Source: Olivibacter sp. XZL3
GTDB lineage: Bacteria > Bacteroidota > Bacteroidia > Sphingobacteriales > Sphingobacteriaceae
DNA length: 64,000 bases
Assembly (NCBI RefSeq): GCF_004368405.1
Contig: NZ_SBJH01000008.1
Coordinates: 62,001 to 126,000, forward strand
Reading direction: 5' to 3'
Part shown: positions 16,335 through 19,840 of the stretch, piece after piece
Layout: each line of letters starts with the position of its first letter
Numbering within the stretch: the first letter of the stretch is position 1
Translations under genes and position numbers: made by a program
The notes under the pieces: model-generated
Seen by the model: the letters and a program-made list of their open reading frames with translations, nothing else
What the model was told of the DNA's origin: nothing
The model's database searches: none

Positions 16335-16437
16335 TTAAATAGTTCTATAAGATATTTAGGGAATTATATAAGGTTTCTTCCTCTTCTTTGTAGAGCTTTG
16401 TCTATCAAGATCGCTAAATAAAGAGATATTATTGGAC

Positions 16438-17001
16438 ATGATATTATTCGTAAAAAACATGGTATGCAACCGCTGCTTAATGGTAGTGAGGCAAATTCTG
16501 GAAGAGCTGAACATCCAGCCATTGTCTGTCTGTTTGGGCGAGGTGGAGCTTGATAAGGAGTTGGATAAGGTACAGTTCCAAAGCCTGAAAGACCGTTTGA
16601 TAGCCGTTGGCTTTGAACTGTTAGATGACAAAAAGCACAAATTGGTTGAGCGAGCCAAAACCTTATTGATTGAACGAATACACCATGTGGACGAAGTCAA
16701 TATGAAGGTGAACTTTTCGGTCTTTCTTCAACAAGAGCTTGCTATCGATTACAATTATCTCAGTACACTATTCTCGCAAACAGAAGGAGTTACGATTGAA
16801 CAATTCATTATTTTACAACGCATTGAGCGCGCTAAGGAGCTGCTCGTATACAACGAGCTTACTCTGAGTGAAATAGCTTATAAGTTGGGTTATAGCAGTG
16901 TACAGCATTTATCTATGCAGTTTAAGAAAATTACGGGGCTGACACCCTCTCATTTCAAACAGGTTAAAGAACGGAAACGAAAGCCCTTAGACAACTTGTA
17001 G
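16438..17001 (+). CDS. AraC-family regulator with N-terminal HMA-like metal domain
   Basis: A 187-residue protein from the ATG at 16438 (a TTG lies six bases upstream). The first 70 or so residues look like a heavy-metal-associated ferredoxin-like fold. They open MILFVKNMVCNRC, with the CXXC pair C10/C13, and show the HMA-like spacing of VVRQILEEL and GFELLDD. The C-terminal 100 residues are an AraC DNA-binding domain with two HTH units (FSVFLQQELAIDYNYLS and LTLSEIAYKLGYSSVQHLSMQFKKITGLTP). The next gene is a copper P-type ATPase. It is inferred to be a one-component copper or silver sensor that controls copA, with the HMA domain as the ligand-binding part. Confidence 0.85.
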   Translation: MILFVKNMVCNRCLMVVRQILEELNIQPLSVCLGEVELDKELDKVQFQSLKDRLIAVGFELLDDKKHKLVERAKTLLIERIHHVDEVNMKVNFSVFLQQELAIDYNYLSTLFSQTEGVTIEQFIILQRIERAKELLVYNELTLSEIAYKLGYSSVQHLSMQFKKITGLTPSHFKQVKERKRKPLDNL

Positions 17002-17013
17002 GACAGAAGATTA

Positions 17014-17038
17014 TATACAAGATGTCGACAATTGTATA
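17014..17038. promoter_or_regulatory. Dyad upstream of copA, candidate operator
   Basis: TATACAA (17014-17020) and TTGTATA (17032-17038) are perfect inverted copies separated by 11 bp that include GTCGAC. The dyad lies 24 bp upstream of the copA -7 box, near the -33 position. It is a good candidate site for the HMA-AraC regulator. Confidence 0.45.
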
Positions 17039-17060
17039 AGGAACCAAGGGGAGCGGTGGA

Positions 17061-17088
17061 GTACTTTTGTATTATAAAATGAAAGTAC
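17061..17088 (+). promoter_or_regulatory. copA promoter -7 box within a second dyad
   Basis: TACTTTTG at 17062-17069 matches TAnnTTTG. It lies inside a 7-bp inverted repeat, GTACTTT (17061-17067) and AAAGTAC (17082-17088), which ends one base before the ATG. The dyad could be an operator or an mRNA hairpin near the start codon. Confidence 0.5.
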
Positions 17089-17089
17089 C

Positions 17090-19348
17090 ATGGAGTCGAT
17101 CCCGTTAAACGCAGACTTTTCGCCAGAAGCTGCGAAAGATAGAAAAATTAAACGTTCTTTTCCCGTATTGGGCATGACCTGTACCGCTTGCTCGGCCAGT
17201 GTCGAATCCATATTGAAGCGCGTGAAAGGTGTACATGACGTATCGGTAAATTATGCAAATCAATCCGCCACCATAAGGTACGATGCAGTCCTGCCAGCGG
17301 AAGAACTACAGCAGACAGTTCGTTCCATTGGTTATGATTTGATTATAGAAGAGGAGCAAGCCTTTGAAGAACAGCACCTCGAGCAAAAAAAATACTATAA
17401 GGCCTTAAAAAACAGGGCTGTCGCGGCAGTGATTTTGTCAATTCCCGTCGTAATCATTGGCATGTTCTTTATGGATATGCCGTACGCCAATTGGATTATG
17501 TTGATCCTTTCAACACCCGTCGTATTTTTTATAGGTAAAGGTTTTTTTATCCAAGCCTTTAAACAAGCAATGCATAGAAAGGCCTCGATGGATACCTTGG
17601 TAGCTTTAAGTACGGGGGTTGCCTTTTTATTTAGTTTGTTCAACACGGCCTTTCCTTTTTTCTGGCATAGGCAGGGTTTGCCTGCACATGTATACTATGA
17701 AGCTGCAACAGTTATTATCGCGTTTATTCTCTTAGGTAAGTTGTTGGAAGAACGAGCTAAATCCAGCACCTCCTTCGCTCTTAAAAAATTGATAGGAATG
17801 CAACCCAGGATTGTGCGGGTTTTGAAGGAGGGCATTGAGCAGAATATTCCTGTGGGGAACTTGGTGACCGGTGATGTGGTTGTCGTGAGACCAGGTGAAC
17901 GTATACCGGTTGATGGGACCTTGCTTAGTGGCAGCTCCTTCGTTGACGAAAGCACGATAAGTGGAGAGCCCGTTCCACTGGAAAAGCGCGAAGGCGACGC
18001 CTTATTTGCCGGTACGATTAATCAAAAAGGGAGCTTCCATTTTTTGGCTGAAAAGGTAGGTGATGATACGGTGCTTGCGCATATTATACGAGTCGTAAAA
18101 GAAGCGCAGGAAAGTAAGGCGCCCGTGCAAAAGTTAGTCGATAAAATCGCGGGCGTATTCGTTCCCATCGTCTTAGTCATTGCTTTGTTAACATTTGTTA
18201 GCTGGCTGGTATTGGATGGGCGGAACGCTTTAACACACGCGTTACTGACAACGATAACCGTACTGGTTATTGCCTGTCCCTGCGCGCTGGGTCTGGCTAT
18301 ACCAACCGCTGTTGTGGTGAGCGTAGGAAAAGGGGCCGAAAATAATATATTAATCAAGGATGCAGACAGCTTGGAGTGCCTCGCAAAGGTGGATGTTATG
18401 GTGCTTGATAAAACAGGAACGATTACAAAAGGACAAGCCATTGTAATGGACTTTGAATGGTTCGTGCCTGAAGAGGATATGTCTTATCTCGCCACTATAT
18501 TGAACCAAATGGAGAGTCAATCAGAACATCCCTTGGCAGCCGCCGTACAGGATGCGCTGCAAAAATATGCTCACCCCATTCATTTAGATTCCTTTAAAAG
18601 TATTCCAGGTAGAGGTGTTGTGGCGACCTTTGAAGATAGAACCTACCTAATAGGCAATGAGCGTTTACTTGAAGAATACGATACACCCTTAACCGGAAAG
18701 GCTTTGAGCATTGCCGATCAATTACACGAAAAGGCTAAAACGTGGGTGTTTTTTGCGCGGCCTGGCGAAATACTGGCAAGGATCGCTATTGTGGACGAAG
18801 TAAGGAATCAGGCAGCAAATGCAATCGAAGCAATAAAAAAGCGGGGGATAATAACTTATATGCTTACGGGCGACAACGAACCTACGGCTGCTGCCGTGGC
18901 GAATCAGGTCGGACTGCATGCATTTAAAGCCTCGATGTTACCTGCGGATAAGGCCGCATTTGTAAAGAACTTACAAGAGCATGGACATGTGGTCGCCATG
19001 GTAGGCGACGGTGTGAATGATAGCGAAGCCTTGGCGCTTGCGGACGTCGGTATTGCGATGGGCAAAGGCGCTGATATTACTATGGACGTAGCAAAAATAG
19101 TCTTAACAACATCTGAGTTAGACGCGTTACCTAAGGCTGTTAAGCTAGCTAAACATGCTGCAGGTATCATTAGGCAGAACCTCTTTTGGGCTTTTTTTTA
19201 CAACTTGATTGGTATACCGGTCGCTGCCGGGCTCTTGTATCCCTTGAACGGCTTCTTATTAGATCCGATGATCGCAGGCGCGGCGATGGCATTAAGCTCT
19301 GTTTCGGTTGTATCAAACAGCCTGCGATTGAAATGGACGAGACTTTGA
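17090..19348 (+). CDS. copA: Copper-translocating P1B-type ATPase
   Basis: A 752-residue heavy-metal ATPase exporting Cu(I) (or Ag(I)) across the inner membrane. One N-terminal HMA domain carries GMTCTAC (C31/C34). Then come the membrane helices with the CPC ion-binding motif (C396-P397-C398), the phosphorylation site DKTGT (D440), the SEHPLA nucleotide-binding loop, MLTGDN and the hinge [13 protein letters not shown] with MxxSS-type residues in the last helices fits the P1B-1 (Cu+) group. The HMA-AraC regulator lies upstream and a free HMA protein downstream, forming a compact copper-export locus. Confidence 0.95.
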
Positions 19349-19382
19349 TGAGCGAAGATGACAATGTATTCTTAATAAATTT

Positions 19383-19730
19383 ATGAAAACTTTAACATTC
19401 AAAACAAACATTAAATGTGCTGGCTGTATAGAAAAGATAAAACCTGCGTTGGATCAACTAATAGGCGTTACCCATTGGGATGTAGATTTAGAGAAAGCAG
19501 ATAAAGTGCTCACTGTTCGTGAAACACAACAAATCGTCGGTGCACAGCAAATAATAGACGTCTTGGAAAAGTTGGGCTATAACGCAGACGATAAGTCTTC
19601 ATCCGGCAATACAACAATTCCCTCGAGCGTAAATTCGTCTTCATGCAATAGCAATTCCTCTATTGCCAAAACGTTGTCCTCGTGTAAAGGGGCCTCTTGT
19701 GCATTGCCTTTTAATTCCTCTATGGGGTAG
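19383..19730 (+). CDS. Heavy-metal-associated (CopZ-like) protein with unusual C-terminal tail
   Basis: The first 71 of 115 residues are a complete HMA domain with the metal pair C12/C15 (IKCAGC) and the closing LEKLGYNAD. It probably acts as the copper chaperone for CopA, whose gene ends 34 bp upstream. The last 44 residues are Ser/Asn-rich with four cysteines and look unlike any HMA tail. They are encoded opposite the end of a convergent ORF (19577-19840). The normal family length is about 70, so either the tail is a read-through product of a lost stop codon or it is a real cysteine-bearing extension. Confidence 0.82.
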   Translation: MKTLTFKTNIKCAGCIEKIKPALDQLIGVTHWDVDLEKADKVLTVRETQQIVGAQQIIDVLEKLGYNADDKSSSGNTTIPSSVNSSSCNSNSSIAKTLSSCKGASCALPFNSSMG

Positions 19731-19840
19731 TTTGAAATAGCAAAAACCGGGATGTTATTCCGCTTAGCCTTTGGAATTAACGCGGTATACCCATTGAGCT
19801 TGAGCCTCCTGAGCAAGTCTATGCTAAGTGATTGTTCCAT
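19577..19840 (-). CDS. Hypothetical acidic protein overlapping the HMA gene
   Basis: An 87-residue frame from the ATG at 19840 (a longer start exists at 19882). The N-terminus (MEQSLSIDLLRRLKLNGYTA) looks like a coherent amphipathic helix. The C-terminal half is acidic and Leu-rich. It shows no recognised domain. It shares 154 bp with the convergent HMA gene, and its composition is more protein-like than the Ser/Asn-rich tail read on the other strand. It may be the genuine gene in the overlap. Confidence 0.5.
   Translation of the reverse strand: MEQSLSIDLLRRLKLNGYTALIPKAKRNNIPVFAISNYPIEELKGNAQEAPLHEDNVLAIEELLLHEDEFTLEGIVVLPDEDLSSAL

Follow-up and report, generated by a model that had tools for sequence, protein, structure and literature searches.

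A probable copper regulator joining an HMA-like domain to an AraC domain beside copA in Olivibacter and other Bacteroidota

Introduction

How Bacteroidota sense copper in the cytosol looks to be an open question, and a locus of Olivibacter sp. XZL3 brings it into focus. In a 64,000-nucleotide stretch of contig NZ_SBJH01000008.1 (positions 62,001 to 126,000; hereafter the window, from whose first letter all positions are counted), a gene for a 187-residue protein (16438-17001, plus strand, from its ATG) stands 88 bp before copA (17090-19348, plus strand). The window lies in contig C93 of the 5.36-Mb host genome. The 752-residue CopA has one N-terminal HMA domain and the motifs CPC and DKTGT, and it passes the copper subfamily model TIGR01511 of NCBIfam (574.4 bits against a cut-off of 397); by motifs and model alike it is a Cu(I) P1B-type ATPase. 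In the same host genome no match to the CsoR/RcnR family was found, with a control that was positive in 6 of 14 genomes, and none to CueR over the curated cut-off (best 79.2 bits against 147.4), no search being aimed at CopY or at two-component systems. For the flavobacterium Bizionia argentinensis, a genome study of 2024 describes MerR and CopY-type proteins that lack the copper sites of CueR and CopY, and it points to proteins of ArsR type and to a two-component pair as potential copper regulators (PMC11213822).

The original prediction held that the 187-residue protein joins an HMA-type CXXC domain to an AraC DNA-binding domain, that its gene directly precedes copA and the gene of a free HMA protein, and that it controls copper genes by a distinct design, two dyads in the copA promoter being candidate operators. 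The open frames are arranged as claimed and the observation is confirmed; the interpretation is partly supported, being right in outline and wrong on the operators. Proteins of this kind, here called HMA-AraC, are a concrete candidate for the sensor, with a predicted operator and predicted targets, and are probably a copper alarm in many Bacteroidota.

Domains and predicted fold

The C-terminus of the regulator is of AraC type. PF12833 matches residues 101-176 with 72.2 bits against a cut-off of 33.6, and the NCBIfam matches listed for the protein (25 of 31) are to AraC-type regulators. The usual partner of an AraC domain is a cupin or another domain, not an HMA-like metal domain. The first 65 residues here (16438-16632, plus strand) contain the loop MVCNRC, in which CNRC forms residues 10-13 of the protein within the first loop of the domain, and MVCxRC is invariant across 21 aligned relatives. 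Structure prediction of the N-terminus, suggested as a check on the original prediction, returns the HMA-type β-α-β-β-α-β order both within the AlphaFold2 model of the full-length protein (pLDDT 87.1 for the whole protein) and for the domain alone (pLDDT 93.8). When compared with the PDB, a profile of the 21 domain sequences matches a six-domain ATPase chain (1.4e-10 for the whole), the two-domain 2ew9 (4e-6) and CopZ (4.4e-4). Foldseek with the domain alone places HMA-type metal-binding structures at all of ranks 1-13, CopZ first, at E values of 0.018 and above.

Two results pull the other way. At E ≤ 1 the Pfam HMA model (PF00403) does not match the window protein, and a structural aligner other than Foldseek sets ACT domains level with HMA domains at Z scores of about 7 to 8. 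Since that aligner gives similar scores, the fold alone is not decisive between the two; the CxxC loop and the profile decide, and the ACT-domain reading was rejected on the loop, the profile matches and the Foldseek ranking. The domain is named HMA-like because the Pfam match is absent in the window protein, yet 15 of the 21 relatives match at E ≤ 1 (best 3.8e-4). By model and profile, then, the N-terminus is an HMA-like domain with a CopZ/Atx1-like predicted fold, fused to an AraC domain, as had been claimed. An alternative TTG start is possible two codons upstream of the ATG.

Distribution and gene neighbourhood

By sequence, the relatives of the window regulator are Bacteroidota. HMA-AraC matches occur in 124 of 151 genomes of the host's family (E ≤ 1e-15), and 142 of 296 genomes across the phylum hold a family member (E ≤ 1e-25, in an alignment search with paralogs included). 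Gene neighbourhoods were read in two sets of loci. The first consists of 80 loci from named genomes, the best 80 of at least 593 candidates, two of them Ignavibacteria; the second is an evener sample of 75 loci, roughly every second row among the matches listed in the phylum search, which are the stronger matches. CxxC is present in all 80 named-genome loci, and a CPC-type P-ATPase lies on the same strand within 1.1 kb downstream, among the first three genes, in 46 of the 80; in four of all 80 loci the contig ends within 2.5 kb. The 75-locus sample divides into 64 CxxC members and 11 with Ser in place of the first Cys. Same-strand CPC-type CopA, within 1.1 kb downstream and among the first three genes, accompanies 44 of the 64 CxxC members versus 0 of the 11 Ser members (Fisher 1.7e-5). 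Both sets bear out the linkage for which a survey of HMA-AraC genes beside copA had been proposed.

The window locus is a common arrangement of a large and widespread Bacteroidota family. The notion of HMA-AraC proteins as a distinct form of copper control stands to the extent that the fusion recurs beside copA and that the host shows no CsoR-family match and no CueR match over the cut-off; the idea that this locus is special does not. Relatives also turn up on plasmids: many of the Bacteroidota matches listed there have 41-52% identity over most of the query, and most carry the annotation AraC family or helix-turn-helix protein. Among CxxC members with other neighbours, L202 and L232 precede an HMA-MauE fusion.

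The Ser members are MVSxRC paralogs (L209, L213, L220, L225, L228, L230, L234, L237, L245, L248 and L263), and CopA adjoins none of them. They sit in one 13-row clade of the tree, which also holds the CxxC rows L222 and L243. Inspection by eye places PAS-like proteins near L209, L237 and L248 and response-regulator-like proteins near L209, L213 and L248; a strong operator-like site (score 22.6) lies upstream of the L209 gene itself. A further divergent clade with MVCSHC (L251, L253, L255, L258-L260, L264, L267 and L268) is adjoined by CopA in 7 of 9 cases.

Predicted operator

In 44 named loci the interval from the regulator to copA contains a common block, often just past the regulator stop codon. 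It is a direct repeat, AAATnnTAtAA-N10-AAATnnTrTAA, with a spacing of 21 bp; the refined block reads AAATnTTATAA, followed 21 bp on by AAATTnTATAACA. An operator matrix was built from 40 of these 44 regulator-copA pairs with the window excluded. Three loci were left out because the stretch taken held no convincing site (L038, L057, L066) and one as a duplicate (L111, of L110). Refinement of the matrix started from a 34-base word of the L086 promoter, the 21-bp register having been picked by eye beforehand. When each locus was left out in turn, its site ranked first in 38 of the 40.

Across both strands of the 64 kb, the window-free matrix ranks first the predicted copA operator (17008-17041, plus strand; score 9.1), an exact pattern match whose half-sites, AGATTATATACAAGATGTCGACAATTGTATAAGG, lie at 17008-17018 and 17029-17039. 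First-order Markov resampling, used for all such controls, reaches this score in 1 of 5000 resamples of the window's own intergenic stretch. Rank 4, with a weak score of 4.0, is the predicted operator of the regulator's own promoter (16340-16373, plus strand), a direct repeat TAGTTCTATAA-N10-GAATTATATAA with the same 21-bp spacing; ranks 2 and 3 lie away from both sites. A matching block upstream of the regulator is kept in three same-genus relatives, and this second site before the regulator gene suggests autoregulation. In the 75-locus sample, a downstream site within 400 bp is the top one of its own locus in 34 of the 44 members linked to CopA, against 5 of the 20 remaining CxxC members and 1 of the 11 with Ser. 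For the MVCSHC clade the best downstream score of the matrix is only 5.1, and the operator of that clade may differ.

The two dyads first put forward as operators are there only formally. Imperfect inverted repeats do occur in the window promoter (for example with arms at 17014/17031 and 17061/17081), and 5 of the 40 promoters have a perfect inverted repeat of 7 bp close to the -7 box. Over these 40 promoters, two 12-mers compared as direct repeats agree best at offset 21, with 7.8 of 12 positions, the next value among offsets 14-22 being 4.9 at 19; compared as inverted repeats, the same 12-mers agree at 4.6 of 12 in the best of five offsets. The dyads were rejected on this difference, the conserved element being the direct repeat.

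Position relative to the promoter

In Bacteroidota the -7 box reads TAnnTTTG and spans -12 to -5 (PMC9723704); the consensus is also given in PMC7366714. In the window, the -7 box of the copA promoter, TACTTTTG (17062-17069, plus strand), has its TTTG 24 bp past the operator. The TTTG of the putative regulator -7 box (16397-16400, plus strand) follows 23 bp past the upstream site, with another TTTG at 13. This distance is nearly constant: the gap between the 34-base operator and TTTG is 24 bp in 34 of the 40 copA promoters and 23 bp in 3, the last 3 having 12 or 15 bp; in shuffled tails, TTTG falls at offsets 19-27 in 3.9%. By the published -7 box numbering, the downstream half-site would cover about -45 to -35. 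TTG is found in the -33 zone of only 2 of the 40 copA promoters. Because the operator keeps a near-fixed distance to the -7 box and TTG is rare in the -33 zone, the arrangement suggests a regulator that acts as an activator and stands in for the -33 contact.

Predicted regulon

In the host genome the pattern has five exact matches, compared with one for the reversed pattern. Four precede copper genes, namely copA in the window, copA on contig C76, and both copA and a small HMA gene on contig C73, and the fifth lies inside an unrelated gene. The three copA genes so marked are the closest three of nine host P-ATPase matches, and the genome holds three HMA-AraC copies. With one mismatch allowed there are 47 matches versus 60 for the reversed pattern, so that there is no excess and only the exact matches stand out. 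Ten of the 47 have TTTG at 23 or 24, five of them being copper or regulator sites.

Four relatives (G052, G063, G037 and G015) were read in the same way, and the box is present at 9 of their 19 sites. These nine precede copA three times (twice in G052, once in G015), a small HMA gene (also G052), two similar proteins of about 140 residues that we take to be HYC-type (G015, G063), and in three cases other genes or none; the operator pattern found no copper site in G037. At L270 in G052, copA has an operator and no regulator immediately upstream. Because the site is present where the regulator is not adjacent, one of the five family copies in G052 probably acts on it in trans.

A stricter pattern finds 84 sites across the 296 phylum genomes versus 15 for its reverse. 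Of the 45 genomes that carry such sites, 42 encode a family member as well (Fisher 3.5e-12, uncorrected for kinship). As a separate observation, the small genes that follow operator-like sites with a TTTG box at L175, L183 and L188 resemble one another and look lipoprotein-like; none is a known copper gene, and the L175 product has glycine-zipper matches.

Proposed mechanism and alternatives

What would such a protein do? The explanation preferred here, with somewhat better than even confidence, is that of a one-component regulator, built from a CopZ/Atx1-like HMA domain and an AraC domain, which senses Cu(I), acts as an activator and also controls its own gene. Cu(I) would be bound by the HMA domain through Cys10 and Cys13, and a helical linker would pass the signal to the AraC domain. 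The latter would occupy the tandem pair of half-sites, with its 21-bp spacing, immediately before the -7 box. The bound regulator would substitute for the -33 element and thereby switch on both copA and the gene of the small HMA protein; the second operator copy would let it control its own promoter. Sequence and models show the domains, and the loci compared show a gene order that recurs and a conserved operator at a near-fixed distance from the -7 box. From there we infer the Cu(I) ligand, binding at the predicted sites, activation over repression, and autoregulation, and confidence is lowered because several such steps are chained.

A number of results weigh against the sensor-activator explanation. 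The full TAnnTTTG stands at the 24-bp position in only 11 of the 40 promoters, and resampled copA upstreams of other loci reach a score of 9.1 in 8 of 2000. The regulator's own site (4.0) scores below at least one box-bearing non-copper host site (5.9), and five of the ten box-bearing one-mismatch host sites belong to non-copper genes. PMC7366714 reports that a -33 motif could not generally be found in Flavobacterium johnsoniae, which tempers the argument for replacement of a -33 contact. Across the phylum, the stricter pattern was not found in 100 of the 142 regulator-bearing genomes. Thirty strict-pattern loci were read, and six precede copper-type genes (L166, L179, L189, L190, L192 and L193); L181 precedes a Ser paralog, and the others precede other genes or fall inside genes. 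Neither the strict nor the looser motif is copper-specific phylum-wide, and since most of the thirty loci read stand before non-copper genes or inside genes, other AraC proteins may use a similar code. The Ser members, judged from the tree, would represent roughly one loss event.

Among the alternatives, the strongest is a copper-sensing repressor, in which apo-protein on the direct repeat would block copA until released by Cu(I) or by a copper-loaded chaperone. Closeness of the operator to the -7 box would suit it, and some AraC proteins are generally known to repress; the site nevertheless lies entirely upstream of the -7 box at the -33 position, the usual place of an AraC activator, and repression is considered unlikely. 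Slightly less likely again is that the same regulator and operator respond to another thiol-loving metal (Ag, Zn or Cd) or to redox state. Several soft metals are generally known to bind CxxC HMA folds, and two family members have neighbours that would fit: the CxxC member L043 lies before a Cu/Zn exporter of SO_0444 type (NF033936, 361 bits against a cut-off of 300), and L212 precedes a P-ATPase without CPC. Against these, CPC-type CopA is by far the commonest recognised neighbour in the count of 44 of 64 given above.

The HMA domain could also be a docking module that takes copper from, or makes contact with, either the HMA domain of CopA or the small HMA protein; the regulator would then read the chaperone pool and not free Cu(I). 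A motif search finds a small HMA gene after CopA in 22 of the 46 CopA-linked named loci, as it stands in the window, yet finds none within 1.3 kb in the other 24, and docking is regarded as improbable. That the regulator targets unrelated genes and precedes copA by accident is very improbable: in the close relatives G052, G063 and G037 it does follow biotin genes with no copA beside it, a further point against the preferred explanation, and similar sites precede many non-copper genes, but the CopA linkage recurs across many families and the operator is found also at the L270 copA and before the regulator itself.

Beyond the window, the sensor-activator explanation can be extended into a tentative one, rated a little short of an even chance, in which HMA-AraC proteins would be general cytosolic copper sensors of Bacteroidota that use a chaperone fold as the sensor of an AraC activator. 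They would read an operator code of their own, the AAATnnTAtAA direct repeat with 21-bp spacing, placed so that the TTTG of the -7 box follows after 24 bp. If this is true, the Ser side branch would have lost the first metal cysteine and taken up non-copper control.

Neighbouring genes and other host copies

Downstream of copA, the small free HMA protein (19383-19730, plus strand; 115 residues) consists of an HMA domain at residues 9-66 (PF00403, 30.2 bits against a cut-off of 24.8) followed by a Ser/Cys-rich tail; it falls below the CopZ models of NCBIfam (highest score 32.4 bits, cut-off 95). No later than 19578, the DNA begins to match relatives without the copA-HMA pair at that place, and for this reason the tail seems to be the product of reading on across an insertion or deletion junction. 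An antisense frame of 87 residues (19577-19840, minus strand; beginning MEQSLSIDLLRRLKLNGYTALIPKAKRN) overlaps the tail. It has counterparts in three relatives and no Pfam match, one relative's counterpart giving a single weak, chance-like match.

Turning to the other host copies, the HMA-AraC-copA pair on C76 (L151) adjoins what look by eye like genes for conjugation (TraG-like, relaxase-like), which suggests a mobile element. The HMA-AraC protein on C73 (L152) is near-identical to that on contig C8 of genome G397 (L195), with two identical operator sequences about 3.67 kb apart. Since the two genomes are from different families of the same class, this copper island is probably common to them through horizontal transfer.

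Comparison with known systems

The C-terminal double helix-turn-helix places the regulator with the AraC/XylS family (AraC, SoxS, MarA, Rns; PF12833), whose members are its top structural matches. The 21-bp tandem direct half-sites resemble the araI1-I2 arrangement, and in form the predicted repeat is compatible with tandem AraC half-sites upstream of a promoter core. The regulator differs from that family in its HMA-like sensor and in a total length of only 187 residues. RclR, an AraC-family sensor of hypochlorous acid that has sensing cysteines and a tie to copper stress, is not known to have an HMA domain.

With CopZ/Atx1 chaperones and the HMA domains of CopA (PF00403) the regulator shares a predicted fold, a CxxC in loop 1, and profile and Foldseek matches; it differs from them by its fusion to a DNA-binding domain, by the invariant MVCxRC of the 21 relatives, and by a divergence that takes it below a Pfam call. 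CueR, of the MerR family, likewise provides one-component control of copA, a role that is predicted for the regulator, but its DNA-binding domain is unrelated to the AraC domain, and the Pfam and NCBIfam matches listed for the regulator are AraC models with no MerR-type helix-turn-helix. CsoR and CopY exert the cytosolic control of copA that is predicted here, but are repressors of other folds. Among the titles and abstract openings listed from open-licence papers, preprints excluded, none describes an AraC regulator with an HMA domain and a copper role. AraC-family one-component regulators are already known; the variant predicted here has a metallochaperone-type sensor.

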